Shown one piece after another: positions 50,400-64,000 of a DNA stretch of 64,000 nt; positions within the stretch are counted from its first letter, which is position 1; every line of letters begins with the position of its first letter. Made by a program: the position numbers and the translations under genes. The stretch lies in NCBI RefSeq assembly GCF_000484535.1, contig NC_022600.1, positions 682,001 through 746,000 on the forward strand, given 5' to 3'. This stretch comes from Gloeobacter kilaueensis JS1. GTDB taxonomy: Bacteria > Cyanobacteriota > Cyanobacteriia > Gloeobacterales > Gloeobacteraceae. A model generated the notes under the pieces. That model saw only the letters and a program-made list of their open reading frames with translations. It searched no databases and had not been told where the DNA came from.

Positions 50400-53300
50400 G
50401 TGACTCTTGCTCCGGGGCAGGTCGTGCGCGTCAGGTCGAGGCAGTATCTGGTGGAGAATATCCAACAGGGACGCTCAGCAGCAGAAGCTACGCTTGTTGC
50501 CCTCTCCTGCCTGGAAGACGACGCTTTGGGAGAGCGCCTGGAGGTGCTCTGGGAGCGGGAGGCCGACGCTCAGGAGGTAAGTGGGACGGCGTGGGGGACC
50601 GTAGCCGGGTCCGGATTCGACCAGCCACAAAAATTTTCTGCCTACCTGCACACGTTGCGCTGGCACTGTGTCACCGCTACTGACCCAAAACTCTTCCAGG
50701 CTCCTTACCGGGCAGGTATCGAGGTCAAAGCTTACCAGCTTGCGCCGCTGCGCAAAGCTCTGCTGTTGCCTCGGGTAAATTTGTTTATCGCCGACGATGT
50801 GGGACTCGGCAAGACGATCGAGGCCGGATTGATCCTCCGCGAGATGCTGATGCGCCAGAAGGTGCGCCGGGTGGTGATCGGCTGCCCGCCGTCGGTGGTG
50901 CGCCAGTGGGCGGAGGAGATGGAAAGTCGCTTTGGCCTGCTCTTTCAGATCTTCGATCGCCAGTTCGTCTCCCAGTGCCGTCAGGAGCGCGGCTGGGGAA
51001 TCAACCCCTGGACAACCCACAGCCGCTTTATCATCTCTCAGGCTCTACTGAGAGACGAAGCGTATGCCGAGCCGTTGCGCGCCTGGCTGGGAGACTTTGC
51101 TCCAGGGGCGATGCTCATCCTCGACGAAGCCCACAACGCTGCCCCTGCCAGCGGTACGAAGTACGCCATCGATTCGCAGCTCACGCGGGTCGTGCGCGAC
51201 CTCGCCCCGCGCTTCGAGCACAAGCTCTTTCTCTCGGCCACTCCGCACAACGGGCATTCCAACAGTTTCGCCGCCCTGCTGGAGATGCTCGATCCCCAGC
51301 GCTTCTGTCGGGGAGTGCCGATCAAGAATGCGAAGCAACTGGACGCAGTAATGGTCAGGCGGCTCAAAAGCGACCTCCGCGAAGTGGGCGAAGAGTTTCC
51401 GAGGCGCGAGGTGATCGCCCTGCGCCTGGCGGGGCTGGACGAGGATGCGCCGGAGTTGCTCCTTTCGCGCCTATTGGCCGATTATCGCAGGCTACGAGAA
51501 ACCAAACTCAAAGATGCCCCCCGCGCCCAGGCAACGGCGGCAATGCTGGTGCTCACCTCTCTCCAGAAGCGACTGCTCTCATCGATCGAAGCGTTCTACC
51601 GCACGCTCGGTGTGCATAAAAAAGCGCTCGGGCGGCAGGCCGAACGGCGTCCGTTTATCACCCGGAACCTGTCGCTTCTAGTGACAGGGGTTGGCCCCGA
51701 CGATGAGCGGGCCGATCTTAGCGAGGAGGATGTCGTCCTGGAAGAAGAAGCGCAGATCGAGCGGGCAAGCGCTGCCGGTGCTGCCGAAGATCTAAGCGAA
51801 GAAATCGCCCTCGTAGAGCGGATGCTGCAGGTGGCAGGCAGTGTCCGCTACGACCCCGACGTTAAAGTGCTGGCACTGGCGGACTGGCTGCGGGAGAACC
51901 TCTGCCCGGATCTGGGCCAGCCCGGTGCGCGCTGGTTAGATCGGCGAGTACTGATCTTTACAGAGTACATCGACACCAAGCGCTACTTGGTGGAGCAGTT
52001 AGAGAGCCTCATCGTCCGTTCTGACCGGGCCGAAGAGCGAATCGCTGCTTTTCATGGCGGCATGAGCGACGAGCGGCGCGAAGAGCTGAAAAGCGCCTTC
52101 AATGCGGCTCCAGCCGATTCTCCCCTGCGGATTCTGGTCGCCACCGACGCTGCCCGCGAAGGGGTCAACCTCCAAAATCACTGCGCCGACCTGTTCCACT
52201 TCGATATTCCCTGGAACCCAGGCCGGATGGAGCAGCGCAATGGCCGCATCGATCGCAAGTTGCAGCGTTCAGCGGCGATCCGCTGCTACTACTTCGTGTT
52301 GCCCCAGCGCAGCGAGGACCGCGTGCTGGATGTGCTGGTGCGCAAGACCCAGACGATTCAACAGGAACTGGGCAGTCTCTCGCCGGTACTGGAACAGCGG
52401 GTCGAGCGGCTGCTCGAAGCGGGCATTCGCCCGGAGCAAGTGGCCCAGATCGAAGCGGCAATCGAGGGAGCCGACGAGGCGGGAGACGATGGGCCGGGCC
52501 TCGCCGCAGTGCGCGAAGAATTAGAAAGTTCGCGGGTGCGCCTTGAGCCGCTGCAAAAGGAACTGGCCGATCTGCAGGAATTGCTCAAGATCTCCCGCGA
52601 CTGGTTGGGTCTGAGCGACAATCACTTTCGCGAGGCGCTGAATGCGTCGCTTGCCATCCTCGGTGCCGGTGACCTGGTGCCCGTGAGTGAAGCGGAGGCC
52701 CGCCACGATCCGGCGCGGGCACGGTGGGTATTTCCAGCCATAGACGAGCGCTTTGGAGCGGACCCGAGTTGGGCTGCGACCCTCGATACCCTGCGCGGAG
52801 CGCGGCAACCCGGTCAGAAGCCCTGGCAGTGGCGCAAGGAATCACCGATCCGGCCCGTGATCTTTCGCGATCCGGGCAACCTCGATGGCAAAGTCGTCCA
52901 CCTGCACCTGGAGCAGCGGGTGGTCAAGCGCCTGTTGGGCCGCTTTCTCTCCCAGGGCTTTGTCCACGACGAACTCAGCCGCGCCTGCGTCGTTCTCACC
53001 GATGATCCCAGGCCAAAGGTCGTCGTCCTCGGGCGGCTGTCGCTCTACGGCGAACTGGCGGCCCGCCTGCACGACGAGGTGATTGCGGTGGCAGCCGAAT
53101 GGATACCGCCTGAAAGGCGCGGACGCAGCAGGCTCCAGCCCCTCACCCTTGCCGGGCAGGGGGACGTGCTCGCTCTGGTCGAAGCGTCCCTGGCAACCCC
53201 GCGCCTCTGGGAGGTGGGTGAGAGTGCAAGGGCACTGCTCAAAAATGCCGCCGCCCAGGATGTCGAGGAACTGGAACCGCACCTGAAACGGCGCTCCGAC

Positions 53301-53621
53301 ATTTTGGCGGAACGGGCAACGAAGAAGTTGAGTGAGCGCGGCCTCAAGGAAGCAGCCGAGATGCGCAAGTTGCTCGAAGAGCAGCGCAGGCTCATCGAAA
53401 AGCGCTTTCAAGACACCGGGGGCGACCGACAACTCGAACTGCGCTTCGCTGCGGACGAGCGGCGGCAATTAGAGGCGGATCGGCGGCACTGGCAACGGCG
53501 GCTCACCGACCTCGAAGCGGAGCTGACAACTGAACCCGCCCGCATCGAAGCCAACTACCAGATCAAGGCGGTGCGGATCGAACCGGTGGGCATCGTCTAC
53601 CTCTGGCCTGTTTCGGGGTGA
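50400..53621 (+). CDS. drmD: DISARM SNF2-like helicase DrmD
   Basis: The 1073-residue superfamily 2 translocase has an N-terminal DrmD-type opening (LAPGQVVRVRSRQYLVENIQ). Motif I is ADDVGLGKTIEAGLI (about 132), motif II LILDEAHNA, motif III LSATPHNGHSN, and motifs V/VI VATDAAREGVNLQ and RMEQRNGRIDRKLQ. The C-terminal part is rich in charged helices (about 940-1040). In class 1 DISARM, DrmD accompanies the adenine methylase and helps restrict phage DNA. It starts with GTG at 50400, and drmMI follows 18 bp after its stop. The base composition is similar to the host, so the system is not a very recent arrival. Confidence 0.88.
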   Translation: MTLAPGQVVRVRSRQYLVENIQQGRSAAEATLVALSCLEDDALGERLEVLWEREADAQEVSGTAWGTVAGSGFDQPQKFSAYLHTLRWHCVTATDPKLFQAPYRAGIEVKAYQLAPLRKALLLPRVNLFIADDVGLGKTIEAGLILREMLMRQKVRRVVIGCPPSVVRQWAEEMESRFGLLFQIFDRQFVSQCRQERGWGINPWTTHSRFIISQALLRDEAYAEPLRAWLGDFAPGAMLILDEAHNAAPASGTKYAIDSQLTRVVRDLAPRFEHKLFLSATPHNGHSNSFAALLEMLDPQRFCRGVPIKNAKQLDAVMVRRLKSDLREVGEEFPRREVIALRLAGLDEDAPELLLSRLLADYRRLRETKLKDAPRAQATAAMLVLTSLQKRLLSSIEAFYRTLGVHKKALGRQAERRPFITRNLSLLVTGVGPDDERADLSEEDVVLEEEAQIERASAAGAAEDLSEEIALVERMLQVAGSVRYDPDVKVLALADWLRENLCPDLGQPGARWLDRRVLIFTEYIDTKRYLVEQLESLIVRSDRAEERIAAFHGGMSDERREELKSAFNAAPADSPLRILVATDAAREGVNLQNHCADLFHFDIPWNPGRMEQRNGRIDRKLQRSAAIRCYYFVLPQRSEDRVLDVLVRKTQTIQQELGSLSPVLEQRVERLLEAGIRPEQVAQIEAAIEGADEAGDDGPGLAAVREELESSRVRLEPLQKELADLQELLKISRDWLGLSDNHFREALNASLAILGAGDLVPVSEAEARHDPARARWVFPAIDERFGADPSWAATLDTLRGARQPGQKPWQWRKESPIRPVIFRDPGNLDGKVVHLHLEQRVVKRLLGRFLSQGFVHDELSRACVVLTDDPRPKVVVLGRLSLYGELAARLHDEVIAVAAEWIPPERRGRSRLQPLTLAGQGDVLALVEASLATPRLWEVGESARALLKNAAAQDVEELEPHLKRRSDILAERATKKLSERGLKEAAEMRKLLEEQRRLIEKRFQDTGGDRQLELRFAADERRQLEADRRHWQRRLTDLEAELTTEPARIEANYQIKAVRIEPVGIVYLWPVSG

Positions 53622-53639
53622 GATCGTAAAGAGCAGAAC

Positions 53640-56600
53640 ATGGCGGACAACACGGTACTACAAGCGCACAGGCAATGGCTGGGACTCCTGCAGCCGGTTG
53701 GTCTGGTTGTCTCGCCTCTGGCCCTTGTGCGCGCCGGGGCGATCGTCAATCACAACGTCTTTGCCCTGCAACAGGAATTACAGGATCTGCTCGCCGAAGC
53801 CAGAGAAACAGCGGACGGAATCGACAATTATCCTATCGACTTCGAGCGCTTCGCCGGACGCCTTTTGGGCTGGGAAGCTGACGATCTGGCCGGTAGCGCG
53901 GACGGGCCAGAATTGCCGGAAGATCTGAGCGTCGCCCTGCCGGATCTAGGAGAACTGCTCACCCCCCGCTACGCAGTCTTTGATCTTGACGCAGAGCGCA
54001 AGGGGCTGCTTCTGGTCCAGGTTCTCCCACCGGGAGCGGACCTCGACGCCGCCACCCACGACAGCGCCTGGACGGCCAGTGCCCAGGCCCGGATGGAGCG
54101 CTTGCTGCGCGAGAACGAGATCTCCATCGGCATTCTCTGGAATTCTCGAACGCTGCGCCTCATCTACTATCCAAAGGGCGAATCGTCGGGGCACCTCGAT
54201 TTTCCGGTAGAGACGATGGCCACCGTGGGCGGACGGCCCATTCTCGGTGCGCTACAGATGCTTCTCGGAGCCGATCGCCTCTTTAACCTGCCCGCCGACC
54301 GCCGACTGGAAGCACTGCTGGCCGCCAGCCGCAAGTACCAGAACGAAGTCTCAAACCGGCTGGCAGACCAGGTTCTCGACGCTCTATGGGAGTTATTGCG
54401 CGGTTTTCAGATGGCCGACGAGGCTGCCGATGGGCGGCTATTGGGCGAGGTGGCCCGGAGCGCGCCCAGCCACATCTACGGCGGGCTGATTGCGGTCCTG
54501 ATGCGGCTGGTGTTTTTGCTCTACGCCGAGGACCGGGGCTTGATGCCCCAAGATCCGATTTACGAGCGCGGTTACTCGCTCACCGGCCTCTTCGAGCGGT
54601 TGCGCATCGACTGGGGCAACTACCCCGATACGATGGACCAGCGCTTCGGAGCCTGGGCCGCACTGCTGAGTTTGTTTCGCCTGGCCTTCGAGGGGGCGGC
54701 CCACGGCGAATTTTCGCTACCGGCCCGCCAGGGCCAGTTGTTCAACCCCGACGAGTACCCCTTTTTAGAGGGCCGCCCCTGGCAGACGAACCGGGTAATG
54801 GGCGAGCGCATCCAGCCGCCCCGCGTGCCGGACGGAGTGATCTACCGGGTGCTCGACAAGCTGCTCGTACTGGGGGGCGAACGGCTCTCCTACCGTTCCC
54901 TCGATGTCGAGCAAATTGGTTCAGTTTACGAGGCGGTGATGGGTTTTGCCGTCGAGCGGGCCGGTGGTCGGTCCATTGGCCTGACGAGCAAGCCCAAAGG
55001 CTCGAAGGTCTCGGTGACGGTCGTCGTCGATCTCGATCGCTTGCTTGCGACGAAGCCGGGCGAGCGGGCGAAGTGGCTCAAGGACAACGCCGGGTGCGAA
55101 GTGACGGGCAACGCCCTGAACGAACTCAAAAAAGCGACCACCCCCGAGCAACTGAATGCCGCCCTCGAAAAGCGGATCTCGAAGCGCACCGCCGGGCTTT
55201 TACCGGCGGGTTCTCTCTACCTGCAGCCAGGCGAAGAGCGGCGGCGAACCGGTTCGCACTACACCCCGCGCACCCTGACCGAACCTATCGTCCGCCACAC
55301 CCTGGAGCCGGTGATCGCCAACCTGGGAGCCCAGCCCACCGCCGACCAGATTCTAAATCTCAAAATCTGCGACCCGGCGATGGGTTCCGGAGCCTTTCTG
55401 GTCGAAGCCTGCCGCCAGTTGGCCGAGCATCTGGTGGAAGCCTGGAACGTGCATCGATCCCAGCCTGCCATCCCCGCCGACGAAGATCCCCTGCTGCACG
55501 CCCGCCGCCTGGTCGCCCAGCGCTGCCTCTACGGCGTGGACAAAAACCCCTTCGCCGTCAACCTGGCCAAACTCTCACTGTGGCTGGTCACCCTCGCCAA
55601 AGAACATCCTTTTACTTTCCTCGACCACGCCCTCAAACACGGCGACTCGCTGGTGGGCCTGGGCCGCGAAAACATCGGTGCCTTCAGTTGGATACCCCAA
55701 GCTCCCCACTACGGGCCGCTCTTCCAGAACATCAGCCGCCAGATCGATGATGCCCGCCACTACCGCGAACAGATTGCCGACCTGGGCGACGACGGTGACA
55801 CCCAAAAGCGACAACTGCACAAAGAAACCGAGGACGCCCTCGCCGAAGCCCGTCTGGCCGGAGATCTGATCGTCGCCGCCTACTTTTCATCTGAGAAAGA
55901 CGCAGCGCGAGAAGCCTATCGTAAGGCGGTGCGCCAAAAATTCGAGGACTGGCAAAGTGGCAGCGATTATATCAATGACTTGTTGTCCATTGCCCAAAGT
56001 TTGCGCGAACAGGAAAAACCGCTCCCGCCCTTCCACTGGGAGATTGAATTTCCAGAAGTCTTTGGACGCACCAATCCAGGCTTCGACTGTTTCATCGGCA
56101 ACCCACCGTTCGCCGGGAAGAACACAACGATCAACTCTAATCCAGAGGGTTATCTCGACTGGCTGAAAGTGCTGCATCCAGGCTCCCACGGCAACGCCGA
56201 TATCGTTGCCCACTTCTTCCGTCGCACTTTCAACCTCCTGAACCAGGGAGGAACCATAGGTTTAATCGCCACCAACACGATTGCTCAGGGTGACACGCGC
56301 AGTACCGGCCTGCGCTGGATCTGCTTGAACGAGGGAACGATCTACCGCACTCAAAAGCGCCTGAAGTGGCCTGGCCTGGCTGCGGTCGTCGTCAGCGTGG
56401 TCAACATCCATAAGGGAATGTACAGCGGACAGAAAACTCTAGATGGAATTGCAGTTCCAGAAATTACAGCGTTCTTGTTCCATACAGGTGGCAGCGATGA
56501 TCCTGTTACTTTAGAAGCGAATGCGGGCAAAAGCTTTCAAGGCAGTATCCTTCTTGGCATGGGCTTCACCTTTGACGACACCAATGCTGAAGCCAGCCCG

Positions 56601-57698
56601 GTTGCCGAGATGGAACGCCTGATCCAAAAAGATCCTCGCAACGCCGAGAGAATCTTTCCCTACATCGGCGGTGATGAGGTCAATAACAGCCCGACCCATG
56701 CGCACCGCCGCTACGTGATCAACTTCGCTGACTTTCCTTTGCAAAGAGAAAATTTAGGCAAATCCTGGTTCGTAGCGACAGAACGAGAGCAGGAAACGTG
56801 GTTGCGCTCGGGCATCGTACCGGCTGATTATCCTGGGCCAGTTGCAGTTGATTGGCCGGATCTATTGCATATTGTGGAAGAGAAGGTGAAGCCAAGACGA
56901 TTGCTTGATAATCGAGCTTCATATAGGAAGTTTTGGTGGCAGTTCGCCGAGAAGAGGACCGACTTGTTTCAGGCGATTCAAAGTTTGACACGGGTGTTAG
57001 TGATTAATTGCGGGGCATCAAAATTCATATCCTTTACTTGGCTTCAGTCCAACACGATATATGCAAATACGCTCGATATAATTGTTGTAGAAACCGATAA
57101 CGGTTTTGGTATTCTTCAATCTCGCATACACGAAATCTGGGCTCGCTTCTTTGGATCATCAATGAAGGACGATCTCCGTTACACGCCCTCCGACTGCTTC
57201 GAGACGTTTCCGTTCCCAGAAAGTTGGGGGTCGAATCTCATGCTCGAAGCAGCAGGCCAGGAATATTACGGGTTTCGGGCTGCTCTGATGATCCGCAACA
57301 ATCAGGGCTTGACCGATACCTATAACCGCTTTCACGATCCTAATGAGTTCAATCCCGATATTCTCGAACTGCGGGAGCTGCACGCTGCGATGGACCGGGC
57401 CGTGCTCAATGCTTACGGTTGGACGGATATTCCAACAGGTTGTGAGTTTTTGCTCGATTACGAGGACGAGGAATCCGAGGAGGAGAGTAGCAGTCGGCAG
57501 AAGAAGAAGCCCTGGCGATATCGGTGGCCCGATGAGGTGCGCGACGAGGTGCTGGCACGGTTGCTGGAGCTGAATCGGCAACGGGCGGAGGAGGAGCAGT
57601 TTGCGGGGCTGGCTGCGCAACAGGCACCGGCTAAGCGCAAGGGCGGGCCAAGAGCCAGGAAGCCGGAACAGGAACCACCTGCACTGCCAGGCTTGTAG
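53640..57698 (+). CDS. drmMI: DISARM class 1 adenine methyltransferase DrmMI
   Basis: The 1352-residue protein is a large N6-adenine methyltransferase of the Eco57I type. Motif I is ICDPAMGSGAFLVEACRQL (about 580) and motif IV is GNPPFAGKN (about 820). A long N-terminal region (about 1-550) resembles the helical part of combined restriction-modification proteins. A specificity region follows the catalytic domain and is AT-rich at 56,880-57,150. It would mark host DNA so DISARM spares it. It lies between drmD and the nested accessory genes. No nuclease motif is evident at the N-terminus, which separates it from type IIG enzymes, though this cannot be excluded. Confidence 0.87.
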   Translation: MADNTVLQAHRQWLGLLQPVGLVVSPLALVRAGAIVNHNVFALQQELQDLLAEARETADGIDNYPIDFERFAGRLLGWEADDLAGSADGPELPEDLSVALPDLGELLTPRYAVFDLDAERKGLLLVQVLPPGADLDAATHDSAWTASAQARMERLLRENEISIGILWNSRTLRLIYYPKGESSGHLDFPVETMATVGGRPILGALQMLLGADRLFNLPADRRLEALLAASRKYQNEVSNRLADQVLDALWELLRGFQMADEAADGRLLGEVARSAPSHIYGGLIAVLMRLVFLLYAEDRGLMPQDPIYERGYSLTGLFERLRIDWGNYPDTMDQRFGAWAALLSLFRLAFEGAAHGEFSLPARQGQLFNPDEYPFLEGRPWQTNRVMGERIQPPRVPDGVIYRVLDKLLVLGGERLSYRSLDVEQIGSVYEAVMGFAVERAGGRSIGLTSKPKGSKVSVTVVVDLDRLLATKPGERAKWLKDNAGCEVTGNALNELKKATTPEQLNAALEKRISKRTAGLLPAGSLYLQPGEERRRTGSHYTPRTLTEPIVRHTLEPVIANLGAQPTADQILNLKICDPAMGSGAFLVEACRQLAEHLVEAWNVHRSQPAIPADEDPLLHARRLVAQRCLYGVDKNPFAVNLAKLSLWLVTLAKEHPFTFLDHALKHGDSLVGLGRENIGAFSWIPQAPHYGPLFQNISRQIDDARHYREQIADLGDDGDTQKRQLHKETEDALAEARLAGDLIVAAYFSSEKDAAREAYRKAVRQKFEDWQSGSDYINDLLSIAQSLREQEKPLPPFHWEIEFPEVFGRTNPGFDCFIGNPPFAGKNTTINSNPEGYLDWLKVLHPGSHGNADIVAHFFRRTFNLLNQGGTIGLIATNTIAQGDTRSTGLRWICLNEGTIYRTQKRLKWPGLAAVVVSVVNIHKGMYSGQKTLDGIAVPEITAFLFHTGGSDDPVTLEANAGKSFQGSILLGMGFTFDDTNAEASPVAEMERLIQKDPRNAERIFPYIGGDEVNNSPTHAHRRYVINFADFPLQRENLGKSWFVATEREQETWLRSGIVPADYPGPVAVDWPDLLHIVEEKVKPRRLLDNRASYRKFWWQFAEKRTDLFQAIQSLTRVLVINCGASKFISFTWLQSNTIYANTLDIIVVETDNGFGILQSRIHEIWARFFGSSMKDDLRYTPSDCFETFPFPESWGSNLMLEAAGQEYYGFRAALMIRNNQGLTDTYNRFHDPNEFNPDILELRELHAAMDRAVLNAYGWTDIPTGCEFLLDYEDEESEEESSSRQKKKPWRYRWPDEVRDEVLARLLELNRQRAEEEQFAGLAAQQAPAKRKGGPRARKPEQEPPALPGL

Positions 57699-57775
57699 GC
57701 ACCTGGGTAGCGGTCGAATAGAGCCAGTGGTTGCCAACTATTGAAGCAGTGTTGATCCGTCTACGAGTGCGTACT

Positions 57776-58345
57776 CTACCTTGCTTTTGATCTTTGCCTG
57801 GGTGCAACGGATTTCAAGAAAGAGACTACTTCCTGGAACAAGCGATGCTGCGACATTTTGGTGATGTCATCATCGGTTAGTTCGCTTAGCAGCACTGTAA
57901 CGTCGGGTAAAAGCCGTTCTCTAGCCAGGCTTTGAAGAAGCTGCTTGGGAGCTGATTGGGTCAAATTTTGCTCTACGGCTGTTAACTTTCGCCCATCTTT
58001 CAATTTCGATTCGACAATCGAGGGATCTGCGAAAAAAACAATCTCCAGTTCAGGAAGTGCGACCAGTATTCGATAAGGCTGCGCTGGTGTAACCCAGTTC
58101 AAGTAGCTCTCAAGCTCTTGTTTTCTTATTCTTGCCAGCTCTGGGTCGTTTGTGTCTGCATCCATCACGACAAGCAATGGATGGGGCACTCCAACAATAA
58201 TGGTTCGGGCAACGATAGAAAGCCGATTTCTGCTGTTAGCGACGAAGTAACGAAATTCAAATTCTTGAGCTTCAGGAATAGCTTTCAAAATTGTCTCAAG
58301 CAGAAGTTTATCAAGTTCCGTTTCGACAACTACTTCTATCTTCAT
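57776..58345 (-). CDS. TOPRIM-like protein of a nested nuclease operon
   Basis: The 189-residue protein has a TOPRIM-like pattern: Glu in VVVETELDKLLLETIL and the DxD in LLVVMDADTNDPE, then VALPELEIVFFADPS. These resemble DUF4276/OLD-type TOPRIM proteins that need an ATPase or nuclease partner. The ATG overlaps the stop of the nuclease-like gene by 4 bp (ATGA), so both are made together. The gene is on the strand opposite to the DISARM genes and AT-richer. Function is not established; homology is from motifs only. Confidence 0.6.
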   Translation of the reverse strand: MKIEVVVETELDKLLLETILKAIPEAQEFEFRYFVANSRNRLSIVARTIIVGVPHPLLVVMDADTNDPELARIRKQELESYLNWVTPAQPYRILVALPELEIVFFADPSIVESKLKDGRKLTAVEQNLTQSAPKQLLQSLARERLLPDVTVLLSELTDDDITKMSQHRLFQEVVSFLKSVAPRQRSKAR

Positions 58346-58923
58346 GGGTTGCTCTCGTAGTCAGCTTTTAGATCCAGCAATGCCTCTTTTCGCTCAACTG
58401 CTTGTCGCAGCTTTCGTCTCACACCATCCATCATACGCTGCTGTGGAAGGGTAGCGTCGATGTCTTCAGCAGTCCACAGCAGTACGTTGAGAGGAGTCGC
58501 AAAGGAGGCGTAGAGCTTTGCGACCTGCGTAAAACCAGATGCACTGACCAAAATACCCATCGTGAGTGGCGGTCTCCCTTCAAGCCGAAAACGGAGTTTA
58601 GCCAGCGGTTCTACATCAACTTCTTTACTCAGACACTTTGATTCGACCAGGAAAGTGCCAAGTCGAGTATAGATGGCTCCATCAATTTGTTCGAGGGTGC
58701 CGAGTCTGAGTTGTTCGGAGGTGAAACCGTAAGGCCATCGAACTTCCTCGTATCGTGTACTTTCCAGCTCAAGGTCGAAACCACGCAAAAATATGTATTC
58801 GAGGGCGTAGCCCCTTCCTCCCCAGGCTCCCATAGGTTTGCCCTCGCGCAAGCGTCGCCAGTGCCTCATGAGCTGGCGATGGGTCAAAGATTTTGCTCTG
58901 CTCAACCGCTCGGCATCTGTCAT
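58342..58923 (-). CDS. PD-(D/E)XK restriction-endonuclease-like protein
   Basis: The 193-residue protein shows a nuclease core. Asp in EQIDGAIYTRLG and the strand FLVESKCLS give D-X(n)-E-X-K. GILVSASGFTQVAKLYA resembles the core of Mrr-like endonucleases (a strand and helix after the catalytic Lys). The N-terminus is basic and helical (LTHRQLMRHWRRLREGK), suitable for DNA contact. The ATG at 58923 is chosen for a GGAAG site; a GTG at 58935 is possible. It is first in a two-gene minus-strand operon with the TOPRIM-like gene. It may be a defence nuclease nested in the DISARM locus. Confidence 0.65.
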   Translation of the reverse strand: MTDAERLSRAKSLTHRQLMRHWRRLREGKPMGAWGGRGYALEYIFLRGFDLELESTRYEEVRWPYGFTSEQLRLGTLEQIDGAIYTRLGTFLVESKCLSKEVDVEPLAKLRFRLEGRPPLTMGILVSASGFTQVAKLYASFATPLNVLLWTAEDIDATLPQQRMMDGVRRKLRQAVERKEALLDLKADYESNP

Positions 58924-59009
58924 ACACGCTTCCACACAGTTTAGAAATTAGAGCAGGGCAAGTATGCACAGAGCAACAACTTACACCTGCCAGACAAAGT
59001 CCCTGACAA

Positions 59010-59327
59010 GTGGAACCGAACCGGCAGGCCGGTCATCTCCCGCCTGAGTTTGAATCTGCTGCCGGAGAAGTCCTCGTTCGCTTTCTGCCAACCGGATACG
59101 TACCTCCGTCTCGCATTGGTCACGACCTGAGTCCCTTGCAGCAGCGGTTGCTCGAAGTGCTGGCTGTTACTGGCTCAGCTTCCCTGAGCACGATCAGGAC
59201 TCACCTGGATCCACCCGTCCCCGAACGTACCGTTCAAGAGAACCTGCAGCTGCTTCGTCGGTTAGAACTGGTAGGTTCTTCAGGCAAGGGACGGGGTGCG
59301 CGCTGGTTATTGAATGCTACAACCTAG
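59010..59327 (+). pseudogene. C-terminal remnant of an AlbA_2/Schlafen-like ATP-binding protein
   Basis: A 105-residue frame starting at GTG 59010, with an in-frame stop two codons upstream. LPPEFESAAGEVLVRFLPTGY followed by a winged-helix section (SPLQQRLLEVLAVTG...RTVQENLQLLRRLELVGSS) matches the C-terminus of AlbA_2-type putative DNA-binding ATPases. The N-terminal AlbA_2 and ATP-binding parts are missing, so it is probably a truncated gene. It could instead survive as a small winged-helix regulator of the nested genes. Low confidence in expression. Confidence 0.5.
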
Positions 59328-59640
59328 CACATATAAGGACATTTGTTCCGCGCCATTCCGCGTCATTCCGCGCCATTCCGCGCCATTCCGCGTGATCGCC
59401 TCATGGATAAAATCTGCTACATCGCCTCTATCTAGTCGATTGGTTGCTCTAGAAACAGCCTCTAGAATCGTTCTCAGTTCGCGAGCGAGTTTAGTGTCTC
59501 CGAGTGCCCGGAAACGAAGTGCTCCAGGAAAGAAGGCTACTTTTCTTGTAATAGCTCGAAGGTTTCTTGTGAGGTACGAGGAGGAAAGCCTTGCAGTCTT
59601 CTTCGAGTAGACTGTCTTCGTACCCGTTTTGTAGAAATCC
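59328..59640. other. region with 10-bp tandem repeat; weak reading frames
   Basis: About 310 bp between the winged-helix remnant and the ATPase gene. A minus-strand open frame (59307-59642, 111 residues) and a plus-strand one are open, but the repeat lies in both and neither resembles a known protein. A decayed gene is possible. The promoter of the ATPase gene should lie toward the right edge. Confidence 0.35.
59346..59395. repeat. five tandem 10-bp repeats
   Basis: Units of TTCCGCGCCA repeat five times in a row with single-base changes (copies 1, 3 and 4 identical; copy 2 TTCCGCGTCA; copy 5 TTCCGCGTGA). The unit length is not a multiple of 3, so it is unlikely to be selected as protein. It may be a slippage-prone or regulatory element. 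Confidence 0.9.
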
Positions 59641-60939
59641 ATGATCCGGCGAGTAAAGATTACTGGCTATAAATCTCTAAGGGATGTGGAGATCAACCCT
59701 TTGCCCCAGATAACGCTGATATTTGGGCCTAACGCAGCGGGTAAGAGCAACCTCTTCGATGCGCTGGGCCTGCTTAGTCGCACAGCTGGAGCCAATGCAA
59801 CCCTGAAAGATGCGTTTCGAGCCCACAGAGGAACGCCCCTGGAGGCTTTTAGCTTCGATGAGACAGGATTGGAGGGTCTATTAAAAAAGAAAAGTGCCCA
59901 GTTTACGATCGAAGTGGATGTGTCCTTGTCTGACTCGGTTATATCGCTTGTCGAGGCAGAAATAAAGCAAATGCGTTCGGGTCTGACTGAAGAGCATAGC
60001 AAAGAGCGAAGAATTGTCGAAAAATTGCTGAGGTACAGGCTGACAGTCGAAATCTTGACAGATTCGGGCCATCTTAGAGTTTTAGACGAGTATCTGGCAG
60101 CCGTCAGCCGCACAGGCGAACGCAAGAAGAGCAGAAATCCATTTATCGAAAGTGTATACGAAAAAGAACCGGGCCGGATACGACTGCGAATGGAAGGACA
60201 GTCGCATCCAACGGATTATGAGATGGGATTGGATTATACTCTAGTCTCTCGACCCCTGTATGTTCCGCATTATCCGCATATTACCGCTTTTAGAGAAGAA
60301 CTCAAGCGATGGAGGTTCTACTACCTTTCTCCTGAGGCGATGAGAGCAGAAGCTCCTCTGAAGCAGGTTGAAGTTCTTGACTACATGGGCGAGGATCTAG
60401 CCCCCTACTTCAATTCGCTCAAAGCAACGAATGAAAAGCAGTTTAATACTTTAGTAAAAACTTTTAGAACCATACTTCCGCAAATAGAAAAGCTCGATAT
60501 TGAACGTTCAGCGGATGGGCTGCTGAGATTAACGGTGCAAGAAAATGGAATCCATTATTCGGCACGAGTCGTTTCTGAGGGAACACTGAGACTCCTTGGT
60601 TTACTTGCGATCACCAATCCGATGACACCGGCGAGCGTTGTCGGTTACGAAGAGCCGGAAAACGGGGTACATCCGCGACGTTTAGCGCTGATCGCCAGAC
60701 TTCTAATTGGTGCTGGCCAGCGGGACACCCAGTTCATCGTCAATAGCCACTCGCCTGTTCTGCCCGAATATTTTGATGATATAAACTTAATAATGTGCCG
60801 TCGCTTGAGCGGCCAAACAGTTTTTGAGCCTTTTGACAGCCTGGGCAATCTTTATAGAAAAGAAGACATCGAAAAAGCATTGGAAGATGAGCCGCTGCCT
60901 TTGAGTTCAAGGTTGGTCAGAGGCGATTATGGCGGATAA
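59641..60939 (+). CDS. SMC/OLD-like AAA ATPase (AAA_15/AAA_21)
   Basis: The 432-residue protein is an ABC-type ATPase related to OLD, RloA and AriA. Walker A is FGPNAAGKSNLFDALG (about 29-44). The signature motif is SEGTLRLLGLL, Walker B is VGYEEPENGVHP and the H-loop is VNSHSP. About 220 middle residues form the arm region. The ATPase lacks its own TOPRIM domain but overlaps by 11 bp a gene that may provide one. Such pairs commonly act as antiphage systems, sensing phage proteins and then degrading nucleic acid or tRNA. It lies between drmMI and drmA and is AT-richer than they are. Confidence 0.82.
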   Translation: MIRRVKITGYKSLRDVEINPLPQITLIFGPNAAGKSNLFDALGLLSRTAGANATLKDAFRAHRGTPLEAFSFDETGLEGLLKKKSAQFTIEVDVSLSDSVISLVEAEIKQMRSGLTEEHSKERRIVEKLLRYRLTVEILTDSGHLRVLDEYLAAVSRTGERKKSRNPFIESVYEKEPGRIRLRMEGQSHPTDYEMGLDYTLVSRPLYVPHYPHITAFREELKRWRFYYLSPEAMRAEAPLKQVEVLDYMGEDLAPYFNSLKATNEKQFNTLVKTFRTILPQIEKLDIERSADGLLRLTVQENGIHYSARVVSEGTLRLLGLLAITNPMTPASVVGYEEPENGVHPRRLALIARLLIGAGQRDTQFIVNSHSPVLPEYFDDINLIMCRRLSGQTVFEPFDSLGNLYRKEDIEKALEDEPLPLSSRLVRGDYGG

Positions 60940-61546
60940 GATAAGACTCGGTTATTTTCTGGAAGATAGTGGTCACGAAGAATTTATCCTGGGTCTTGTA
61001 GAGCATATAGCCGAAGAAGCAGGATACCACCGTCAGCAGCTCAGCAACGATGTTAGAAACTCTACCGGCGGCAAGGGCCGGGTCATCTCTGCTCTACAAA
61101 AGTTTTTGCAGGAGCTTAGAGTTGGAGACAACAATCCGTTCGACTTCCTGATAGTTGCAATAGATGGCAATTGCACTGGCTTTCTACAAAAACGTACAGA
61201 GGTCCAAGAGCTGGCTGAGCGCTCAAAATTTACTGGCAACATCATCTGTGCTATCCCCGATCCTCATATAGAGCACTGGTACATGGCAGATCCGCTATCT
61301 TTTAAAAAGGCTACAGATCTTGACTCTCAACCTGTTCCACCCAAATACAAGTGCGAAAAAGAGATTTATAAAAAGGCACTTATCGAAGCTTTTGCAAAAT
61401 GTGGTGTCATTCCACCTTTGGACGGCATAGAGTACGGAAGAAACTTTGCCCTGGAGATGAACCTCTACGACGCATGTCAGAGGTGTCCTTCCCTCGGTCA
61501 TTTCGTCGATGAGGTTAGAACGGCCCTTGCTTCGGTTCTCAGATAA
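60929..61546 (+). CDS. putative TOPRIM-like effector partner of the ATPase
   Basis: The 205-residue protein overlaps the ATPase gene by 11 bp. The N-terminus LGYFLEDSGHEEFILGLV has the Glu and Glu pair expected of a TOPRIM start. FDFLIVAIDGNCTGF may be the second acidic strand, and PDPHIEHWYMAD resembles the conserved Ile-Glu-x-Trp of DUF4276-like proteins. In related pairs (RloAB, AriAB of PARIS, split OLD systems) the partner is the nuclease. It does not clearly match DUF4435, so it may be a separate subtype. The function is inferred from pairing. Confidence 0.6.
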   Translation: MADKIRLGYFLEDSGHEEFILGLVEHIAEEAGYHRQQLSNDVRNSTGGKGRVISALQKFLQELRVGDNNPFDFLIVAIDGNCTGFLQKRTEVQELAERSKFTGNIICAIPDPHIEHWYMADPLSFKKATDLDSQPVPPKYKCEKEIYKKALIEAFAKCGVIPPLDGIEYGRNFALEMNLYDACQRCPSLGHFVDEVRTALASVLR

Positions 61547-61644
61547 ATACTTTCTCGAACGATTGCCATCGTGCAAAAACTACCAAAGAAGCTTTGGAGC
61601 CGGTAGGATAGGGTACATTTGTTTATCAGGCTGTGCTTCCAGAC

Positions 61645-64000
61645 ATGGCAGACTCTTCCAAACACGTCCGGCAAAGCCTCGTCGATGCTCTGCAACTTGA
61701 TCTAGTCGGCCCGCTACCAGAAGATCAACGGTACCAGGACGAGGTGTTGCCTCAGCCTCCTTCCCGCTGGTATCTGAGTGGGTTTCTCGTTCCCTACGAG
61801 GCGAAGATCGAGCAGCGCTCCGACGATGTGAGTGCCGACGATCTCGACCTGGTAGAAGGGTCAGGAGCGGGGGACGACGAGGCGGCTCCCGAGGCCGCTT
61901 CCGCCCGCAAGGCGTTTTTTCCGTCCTCGATGGGCGTGAGCTTTCTGGTCTCCTCCGAGGTTGAGAACTTGCGAGTCGTGATTGAGGGAGGTGACTACAC
62001 TCCGCTGCCCCAGGTGCAAGAGACGACGCAGACCGACGCAAAAGAGCAGGTAGATCAAGCTACCGACGCCCAGGGACAAGTCTGGAAGCGGACGGCCCGC
62101 AAGTGGTCGCTTACCGTACCGCTTCTTAAAGAAGAACAGGCGTCCTCGCGTTCGAGTCATTCGATGCAGTCGCTATCAGTGGCTGAAAGCGGCGGGTTAC
62201 AACTGGTTCTCTCCGTCCGCCCCGTGCAAAGTGGGGTGCCAGTACCGGCGGGCACGCGCTCGGTGTCGATTTTTCTGGTCAACAATCGGCGACCGGCAGG
62301 AGATGGTGAGCGCGACACTGCTTTTATCTTCCAGGCGGCCCTGAGCATCCACTGCGCAGCAGGGTTCGTGGCCCGCCCCGATCCCAGGGGCCAGGGCGGC
62401 GATGCGGATGAGCAGGTGGCGGATCTGCAGTTTCGAGACGCCTGCGAGTACGCGGTGGGCCACAACGTATCGGCGGTGGCCCGGCTAAATGCCGATGGCC
62501 GCTGCCGCTGCGTCAGCACTGCCTGGCTGCCCACAGCCGAAGTGGAGAAGGTGGTGCCCGTCTCGATCGCCGGTGTCGAGCTGGGTATGGAAAATCTGGC
62601 GGCGGCGAAGGATGCAGATGCGGTGGCGGCGATGCTGGCGGCCCTGCCCGATCGGTACGCGGACTGGATTGCTGAGCAGCGGGCGAAGCGGCCCGACGGA
62701 GAGCAGCGACGCCAGGTGGCCGACCGGCTGCTCCACCGCGCTTCGGTGGCCAGACAGCGCATCGAAGCGGGGATCGCGTGCCTTGCCGACCCTCAAGTGC
62801 TGGAGGCGTTCCGGATTGCCAACCGGGCGGTAGCGAGTGCGATTCGCCGGCGAGCGAGCTTCGATGGCACCTGTACGCCCGAAACCGCCAGGGCTCCTGC
62901 CTGGCGGCCTTTTCAGCTGGCTTTTATTTTGATGAACCTGCGGGGCATCGCCGAGCCGTCCCACCCGGATCGCGAGGTGGTGGATCTGTTGTTCTTCCCG
63001 ACGGGCGGCGGTAAGACCGAAGCCTATCTGGGCCTGGCGGCGATCACCCTCGTTCTGCGGCGGCTCAAGAACCCGAGCATCGCCTCGGCGGGCCTCAGCG
63101 TCCTGATGCGCTATACCCTGCGCCTTTTGACCCTCGACCAGTTGGGCCGCGCTGCCACTCTCATCTGTGCCCTCGAACTGGAGCGGCAGGCAAACGTTGC
63201 CAGACTCGGACCCTGGCCGTTCGAGATTGGCCTCTGGGTAGGCCAGTCCGCAACTCCCAACCGCATCGGCAAAAAAGGCGATAACGACCGCTACAGTGCT
63301 CGGGCCCGGACGATTGCCTTTCAAAACAACGATCGCAAACCCTCGCCCATCCCGCTGGAGAACTGCCCCTGGTGCAACGAAAAATTCAAGACGGCCTCCT
63401 TTCAACTTTTGCCCAACGCCGACAGCCCGACCCGGCTTTCGGTTGTCTGCCTTAACCGCAAGCGCACTGCCAGCGGCCAGTTTATCTGTCACTTCCGCTC
63501 GAATAATCCGTTGCCGGTGCTGGCGGTAGACGACGAGATTTATCGGCGACTGCCCTGCTTTGTGATCGCCACGGTCGATAAGTTTGCCAACCTGCCCTGG
63601 GTAGGCGAAACTGGGGCGCTCTTTGGCAAAGTCGAGCGCTACAGCGACCAAGGCTTCTTTGGACCGACAGATCCGGGCAAGGGCCAGCCGTTGGGCGGTT
63701 CCCTTGCCCCGCCGGATCTGGTCATTCAAGACGAGTTGCACCTGATCTCCGGTCCCCTGGGCACGATGGTCGGGCTGTACGAGACGGCGATCGACGCGCT
63801 GTCGAGCCGCTTCGACGCAGAAGGCCGGTCGATTCGGCCCAAGATTATCGCTTCGACGGCGACGGTGCGGCGGGCAGAAAAACAGATCCGCGCCCTGTTT
63901 GGCCGCACCCAGGTGGATGTCTTTCCACCGCCTGGCCCGGATCGGCGCGATGCCTTCTTCGCCCGAACCGTTCCGACCAGTGAGAAGAACGGGCGACTGT
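61645..64000 (+). CDS. drmA: DISARM helicase-related protein DrmA, N-terminal part
   Basis: The gene runs off the right edge after about 785 residues (the family is roughly 1,000-1,200). It begins MADSSKHVRQSLVDALQLDL. The helicase core is clear: VVDLLFFPTGGGKTEAYLGLAA (Walker A with the GGGKTE of DrmA), VLMRYTLRLLTLDQLGRAA and DLVIQDELHLISGPLG (DE-x-H type motif II), then SRSIRPKIIASTATVRRAEKQ-like IIASTATVRR (motif III). A Cys pair ENCPWCNEKF lies between. It is core to DISARM. The usual partners drmB and drmC should lie past the window edge. Confidence 0.88.
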   Translation, partial: MADSSKHVRQSLVDALQLDLVGPLPEDQRYQDEVLPQPPSRWYLSGFLVPYEAKIEQRSDDVSADDLDLVEGSGAGDDEAAPEAASARKAFFPSSMGVSFLVSSEVENLRVVIEGGDYTPLPQVQETTQTDAKEQVDQATDAQGQVWKRTARKWSLTVPLLKEEQASSRSSHSMQSLSVAESGGLQLVLSVRPVQSGVPVPAGTRSVSIFLVNNRRPAGDGERDTAFIFQAALSIHCAAGFVARPDPRGQGGDADEQVADLQFRDACEYAVGHNVSAVARLNADGRCRCVSTAWLPTAEVEKVVPVSIAGVELGMENLAAAKDADAVAAMLAALPDRYADWIAEQRAKRPDGEQRRQVADRLLHRASVARQRIEAGIACLADPQVLEAFRIANRAVASAIRRRASFDGTCTPETARAPAWRPFQLAFILMNLRGIAEPSHPDREVVDLLFFPTGGGKTEAYLGLAAITLVLRRLKNPSIASAGLSVLMRYTLRLLTLDQLGRAATLICALELERQANVARLGPWPFEIGLWVGQSATPNRIGKKGDNDRYSARARTIAFQNNDRKPSPIPLENCPWCNEKFKTASFQLLPNADSPTRLSVVCLNRKRTASGQFICHFRSNNPLPVLAVDDEIYRRLPCFVIATVDKFANLPWVGETGALFGKVERYSDQGFFGPTDPGKGQPLGGSLAPPDLVIQDELHLISGPLGTMVGLYETAIDALSSRFDAEGRSIRPKIIASTATVRRAEKQIRALFGRTQVDVFPPPGPDRRDAFFARTVPTSEKNGRL

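Follow-up and report, generated by a model that had tools for sequence, protein, structure and literature searches.

A class 1 DISARM operon of the cyanobacterium Gloeobacter kilaueensis JS1 is interrupted, between its methyltransferase gene drmMI and its helicase gene drmA, by 3.9 kb of further genes. Does this composite work as one integrated system, or does it mark a place within DISARM where other genes come to lodge? A sequence-only reading had offered both answers. We considered the question within a window of 64,000 nucleotides (the whole stretch of DNA that was analyzed), which corresponds to bases 682001-746000 of a single-contig genome of 4.72 Mb. Features are listed in Table 1 by window position.

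The host operon is a complete class 1 DISARM, drmD-drmMI-(3.9 kb)-drmA-drmB-drmC, with all frames open. The canonical class 1 order of drmD, drmMI and drmA, noticed from the sequence alone, is borne out by PADLOC matches and coordinates, and the drmA/drmB/drmC core is likewise recognized by PADLOC. Past the end of the window, drmA is followed by intact drmB (638 aa; DrmB, 2.2e-78) and drmC (268 aa; DrmC, 8.5e-117; PLD motif HAKCVVID), the two genes whose absence the sequence-only reading had named as evidence against itself. The helicase, methylase and PLD motifs are all in place in drmA, drmD, drmMI and drmC. Translation of drmA starts at 61633 (GTG) or, more likely, at 61645 (ATG). Judged by its genes, this DISARM would restrict unmethylated incoming DNA. 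Its named relatives, among the best 80 of at least 575 by drmA, are largely cyanobacterial.

Table 1. Features of the interrupted DISARM operon, in window positions.
Feature	Coordinates	Strand	Description
drmD	50400..53621	+	SNF2-type helicase, class 1 DISARM; 1073 aa; PADLOC DrmD E=0 over aa 3-1072; GLGKT/DEAH
drmMI	53640..57698	+	Adenine methyltransferase, class 1 DISARM; 1352 aa; PADLOC DrmMI E=0 over aa 5-1345; DPAMGSGAF/NPPF
Nest	57699..61644		Cargo from drmMI stop to likely drmA start; analyzed for ORFs and composition
TOPRIM-like gene	57776..58345	-	189 aa; second gene of cassette; E8, D62 and E101 invariant across 16 aligned sequences, D64 almost so
Mrr_cat gene	58342..58935	-	197 aa; PD-(D/E)XK nuclease-like; first gene of cassette; Pfam Mrr_cat PF04471, 1e-5
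HTH-like remnant	59010..59327	+	105 aa; HTH_20, 0.008, under curated cut-off
Tandem repeat, 10-bp period	59346..59396		Four copies in register, 3' of remnant; similar repeat in a G390 contig
OLD/AriA-like ATPase gene (HEC-01A-like)	59641..60939	+	432 aa; AAA_21, 1.6e-25; HEC-01A, 2.4e-59; AriA, 6e-25; GPNAAGKS, EEPE, HSP
DUF4276 gene	60929..61546	+	205 aa; ATPase partner, 11-bp overlap; Pfam DUF4276, 3.1e-18; HEC-01B, 0.0015
drmA	61633..64000, continues past window	+	YprA-type helicase; 1157 aa in genome; PADLOC DrmA, 1.4e-303; GGGKT/DELH

As had been proposed, the interval between drmMI and drmA holds one remnant and four open genes, two of which are encoded on the minus strand. The genes form two pairs, one on each strand, that stand back to back, with the remnant and a tandem repeat in the spacer. 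Their GC content at third codon positions (GC3) is 0.43-0.51, compared with 0.74 for drmD, 0.76 for aa 1-700 of drmMI and 0.73 for the part of drmA in the window. The claim that the patch is AT-richer than the DISARM genes thus holds, with the qualification that aa 701-1352 of drmMI are AT-rich as well. In this 3' half (55740-57698), GC3 is 0.54-0.65 versus 0.76 upstream and sliding-window GC is 0.48-0.57, so the composition break begins within drmMI; an exchange of the methylase's target-recognition half could account for it.

The HTH-like remnant probably represents the end of a gene that has been lost. A search of 291 genomes recovered its own copy and one contig, from genome G390, that bears a drmD fragment, and nothing else. 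We also tried the assumption, suggested by a motif, that the remnant is the tail of a Schlafen/AlbA_2-HATPase_c_4 protein, and rejected it: the sole intact AlbA_2 guest seen at a drmMI/drmA junction (locus L103) could not be aligned with it (E 0.37; no tblastn match). A minus-strand ORF of 111 aa (59307-59642), which has no Pfam or PADLOC match and meets the start of the ATPase gene head on, was not counted as a gene. Scans of the sequence for promoters (2 found, 3.1 expected) and terminators (4 found, 4.5 expected) remained at chance level.

Relatives within the genus do not allow the filling of the nest to be dated, because three congeners (G386, G387 and G388) gave no drmA match. In G386 and G388 the two flanks of the nest are widely separated, and in G387 they fall on separate contigs. 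G390, a fragmented assembly from the same family with 8% contamination, contains partly decayed DISARM pieces on contigs L242, L249 and L250. The first has a drmA tail 93% identical to the window's drmA together with drmB and drmC, and between the latter two a 208-aa gene of unknown kind (L242:539-1165, minus strand). On L250, fragments of drmD accompany drmC and the tail of drmB; L249 combines half of drmD with the HTH-like remnant and ATTCCGCG repeats.

Related operons from other taxa were collected by using an alignment of 12 drmA proteins as query and retaining, from at least 575 named relatives, the 80 best. Gaps of at least 500 bp, a threshold chosen after a first view of the gap sizes, were present at drmMI/drmA in 36 of 56 measurable cases, at drmD/drmMI in 5 of 35, at drmA/drmB in 1 of 80 and at drmB/drmC in 0 of 59; because the loci are related, these tallies are counts and not independent events. 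Pairs with a gene unseen or on the other strand, as well as gaps below -300 (drmMI downstream), are excluded from the counts. The 24 of 80 loci that lack a drmMI/drmA value comprise 22 in which drmMI was not seen (L098, L151 and L155 among them had 10 kb upstream) plus L134 and L140. In the last two, drmMI lies downstream of drmA-drmB-drmC, and in L140 drmD does so too.

The pattern is similar in the 27 named loci that have all five genes, where drmMI/drmA reaches the threshold in 15, drmD/drmMI in 5 and the other two junctions in none. A second cyanobacterial sample, which overlaps the named set (contig L068 is the same as L095), gave 10/11 for drmMI/drmA, 4/14 for drmD/drmMI, 1/12 for drmA/drmB and 0/6 for drmB/drmC. 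Unfilled drmMI/drmA gaps in 20 named loci span 29-303 bp; the extra DNA in measured loci amounts to 0.5-9 kb. Among the loci measured, this junction is by far the most commonly filled, but it is not the exclusive insertion site, since drmD/drmMI is sometimes filled in both samples. Filling was found in 20 of 25 cyanobacterial named loci and in 16 of 31 others, a group that includes Planctomycetota, Acidobacteria, Myxococcota and Proteobacteria. The downstream genes are tightly packed: drmB comes after drmA in all 80 named loci, at a distance of at most 100 bp in 73, and drmB and drmC are equally close in 57 of 59. The suggestion of a defense hotspot within DISARM is thus supported by the presence of drmB and drmC, by the frequency of filled junctions and by their varying cargo.

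To describe this cargo, we compared 120 ORFs from the 43 filled loci that have an ORF of at least 90 aa; pieces shared only as shorter ORFs, such as the IS200-type one of L067, escape this comparison. Left out were L095 (the L068 contig), L091 (a near-copy of L084) and L083 (no ORF of at least 90 aa). A protein of a PADLOC family was found at 1e-8 in 23 of the 43 loci, 18 seen directly and five by homology, a count that is partly circular because the HEC/PDC models of PADLOC derive from an embedding approach. It combines 18 of the 38 loci scanned singly, mostly with the longest ORF only, four GmrSD loci assigned by cluster, and L154 (92% identity to the L149 protein). The scanned protein had no PADLOC match at 1e-8 in the other 20 loci.

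GmrSD-type restriction enzymes occupy seven gaps (L093, L106, L112, L115, L117, L123 and L147) and form one seven-member cluster; those of L106 and L112 were also scanned singly. A Pycsar pair of cyclase and effector lies in the gap of L073 (L073:5901-7798, minus strand; PycC, 2.9e-120; PycTM, 5.5e-28). AriA/PtuA-like ATPases occur in L076, L082 and L084, a HEC-01A-like ATPase in L120, and SoFic in L080, besides several PADLOC candidates. The gap of L157 holds a DrmD-type helicase gene in antisense (L157:6713-9808, minus strand; DrmD model, 4.4e-297). Some gaps carry IS200-type transposases, toxin-antitoxin-like genes or unannotated ORFs.

These last gaps, like the remnant in the nest, are what would be expected if the guests were neutral passengers and the junction merely the least harmful landing place, and the share of defense families in the cargo was counted within the gaps alone. 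Nevertheless, the recurrence of GmrSD, Pycsar, SoFic, the ATPases and the PADLOC candidates, together with the open frames and catalytic motifs kept by the nested genes, makes this explanation rather improbable.

Closely related operons indicate that the cargo can change. The drmA genes of L087 and L090 are 98.2% identical, and their drmMI/drmA gaps measure 56 bp and 1340 bp, respectively; the difference is bounded by the final codons of drmMI and the initial codons of drmA. Among L067, L071, L072 and L097 (drmA 89-94% identical), all gaps are filled and the main genes differ. L071 and L072 nevertheless share an IS200-type transposase (66%), a transposase of this type is also present in L104, and a shorter, similar-looking ORF occurs in L067. 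Some operons show no such turnover: the cargo is the same within L082/L084/L091 and within L149/L154, whose drmA genes are 85-99% identical. In L117 and L123 the cargo is 95% alike versus 82% for drmA, a pattern that, from the sequences, may reflect transfer of cargo. Cargo GC is below that of drmA in 43 of 44 gaps, with one tie.

A change confined so precisely between L087 and L090, together with the IS200-type transposases, could suggest that the junction is a true integration site of a mobile element or recombinase. We regard this as quite unlikely, since Pfam and PADLOC scans detected no recombinase in the nest, a repeat search found no direct repeat of at least 14 bp framing both of its ends, and the 25 commonest of the 67 Pfam families in the cargo include no integrase. 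One repeat, D3, has a copy at the drmMI end, and its other copy lies within the TOPRIM-like gene.

Whether the nested genes belong to DISARM can be judged from where else they occur. For the minus-strand pair, the PD-(D/E)XK assignment made from the sequence alone agrees with the Mrr_cat match, and D85, E98 and K100 of this protein, the D and ExK residues, are invariant in 16 aligned sequences. It resembles Mrr type IV restriction enzymes in having a Mrr_cat PD-(D/E)XK domain with these residues; it differs from them in its length of 197 aa, in that Mrr_cat is the sole domain found, and in adjoining a TOPRIM-like gene. The TOPRIM-like label for the 189-aa partner is putative: conserved E8, D62/D64 and E101 and a weak match to HEC-01B (2.5e-6) favor it. 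Profile comparison with DUF4276 by hhalign gave a probability of 1.8%, which is not significant, a single-sequence AlphaFold model had a pLDDT of 41, and a PDB profile search returned one chance-like match.

The two genes overlap by 4 bp, as they do in 11 of 17 other pairs fetched. Across 368 cyanobacterial genomes, counting its own, a Mrr homologue is present in 35, a TOPRIM-like homologue in 35, and both in 33. They are adjacent in 30, which corresponds to 30 of the 35 genomes with a Mrr match and, in an unselected count, to 30 of 37 that carry at least one of the two. The genes are on separate contigs in G074, G460 and G540; G019 and G614 have only the Mrr gene, and G149 and G551 only the TOPRIM-like gene. 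The 17 fetched pairs were chosen from strong matches with both genes already listed, so adjacency among these is partly due to selection. Within the 3.7-19 kb read for them, nothing matched DISARM proteins or the ATPase pair of the nest at 1e-4. One genome with the pair, G048, has DISARM on a different contig.

Neighbors of the pair vary. A gene with a methylase-like motif directly follows it in L211, L212 and L216, and PADLOC family counts for neighboring ORFs, of which 92 of 94 were entered (two from L209 were left out), include type I methylases. In L210 (L210:6854-9898, minus strand), which gave no DISARM match, the Mrr copy contains an internal stop, and downstream of the pair, in the same orientation, come a Walker-A ATPase of 388 aa and a partner of 215 aa. 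The congeners G386-G388 have neither gene. No match to either protein was found in viral contigs, nor did a plasmid search with the TOPRIM-like and DUF4276 proteins only yield any.

For the plus-strand pair, the predicted OLD/AriA-like ATPase is supported by all three of its family matches. Like PARIS (AriA/AriB), the pair consists of an OLD-type ATPase and a small partner; unlike in PARIS, the ATPase scores higher with HEC-01A than with AriA, and the partner belongs to DUF4276 and not to DUF4435, the TOPRIM family of AriB, for which no match was seen up to E 0.1. We therefore rejected PARIS as a name for this pair. The HEC-01 pairing is strong for the ATPase and weak for the DUF4276 partner, and the host is DISARM, not Hma. 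Gabija was also rejected, as the 432-aa ATPase has no TOPRIM match and the other nested ORFs scanned gave no GajB helicase match. A paralogous pair (46%/36%) lies in the same genome at G000:C1:3856-5779, and relatives are found in G270; the 14 and 20 kb read at these places contain no DISARM match. Viral contigs hold 12 relatives of the ATPase, one near full length at 36%.

Because each cassette thus also occurs at places where the sequence read holds no DISARM gene, we reject the proposal of a single nine-gene system uniting nest and DISARM, with the nested nucleases as DISARM effectors. The ATPase and DUF4276 genes do run in the same direction into drmA across a gap of less than 100 bp, so co-transcription with drmA is possible. 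However, the other two nested genes are on the opposite strand, and a BLAST comparison of the nest proteins with ORFs of at least 90 aa from 46 other filled gaps yielded a single distant ATPase (L120, 23%), which leaves such a system very improbable. The nested genes were found mainly apart from DISARM, an outcome that the sequence-only reading had itself named as speaking against its proposal. An assembly or gene-calling artefact deserves practically no credence, given a single-contig genome with an estimated completeness of 100 and contamination of 0.69 and homologues for all four nested genes.

The reading that we prefer, with a probability of roughly 0.8, is a complete class 1 DISARM with two autonomous, defense-like guest cassettes at the boundary between the drmD-drmMI and drmA-drmB-drmC modules. 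Their defense-like functions are predicted from sequence. The boundary would tolerate insertion if the D-MI and A-B-C modules can be expressed separately, which would make the junction between them permissive and would fit the downstream position of drmMI in L134 and L140. Insertions within drmA-drmB-drmC should be costly because of its tight packing and because DrmA and DrmB form a complex, as described in PMC9142583. Guests would come and go by recombination across the flanking drmMI/drmA homology and not through a site-specific recombinase. By analogy with PARIS, the ATPase would sense a product of infection, possibly an anti-restriction protein, and would then release a TOPRIM-like nuclease. 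The Mrr_cat/TOPRIM-like pair would be a small nuclease cassette, perhaps one that attacks modified DNA missed by DISARM, and both cassettes would act as backup layers carried along with the DISARM operon.

Defenses embedded within defenses are a published kind. PMC12988326, PMC12111858 and PMC10855318 describe 'guilt by embedding' and the HEC/PDC candidates, including HEC-01 and HEC-06, which are embedded in Hma (Payne et al. 2024 preprint, cited through these sources). The ATPase of the nest best matches HEC-01A, and HEC-06 is matched by the GmrSD proteins found as cargo in other DISARM loci. Further examples come from BREX (PMC11341690 and PMC12839542): an embedded PARIS in Salmonella D23580 and the GmrSD-family enzyme BrxU in E. 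fergusonii pEFER (both PMC11341690). These share with the present locus a methylation-based operon accompanied either by a type IV enzyme or by a pair of the OLD-ATPase/TOPRIM kind. Here, by contrast with BREX-PARIS, the host is DISARM, the partner of the ATPase is DUF4276 and not AriB, and a second pair, Mrr_cat/TOPRIM-like, is present. PMC12839542 and PMC11341690 state that AriA of BREX-linked PARIS reacts to an anti-restriction protein. However, PMC11341690 also reports that no condition was found that activates the BREX-embedded PARIS of Salmonella, and the analogy of a benefit from guests is therefore to be drawn with caution.

The sequence-only reading knew of no described system with this composition. 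Compared with canonical class 1 DISARM, all five genes are present, open and in order, and the difference lies in the 3.9 kb of other genes, some of them antisense, that separate drmMI from drmA. A literature search that the original DISARM and Hma-embedding reports, which may mention the site, fell outside gave no account of the drmMI/drmA junction as a cargo site and no description of the Mrr_cat/TOPRIM-like pair; embedding as such, in Hma and BREX, is already published.

The locus is thus a further case of a known kind of embedding, and the pattern at the drmMI/drmA junction merits a proper survey. About two-thirds of the measured related operons hold varied extra DNA there, and the junction has the look of an exchange site within an immune system, not of a single new system. 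More tentatively, and at less than even odds, it might serve class 1 DISARM in several phyla as a general port for cargo, with guests that are kept because they act once a phage has disabled DISARM. Many of the cargo genes without annotation, including the Mrr_cat/TOPRIM-like pair, might represent undescribed defense systems. The near-identical unfilled and filled operons of L087 and L090 make the benefit of a guest to DISARM directly testable, and the Mrr_cat/TOPRIM-like pair, small and conserved, lends itself readily to cloning. Reading drmMI-drmA gaps would be a quick route to new phage defenses, provided that guests have a stable place at this junction.
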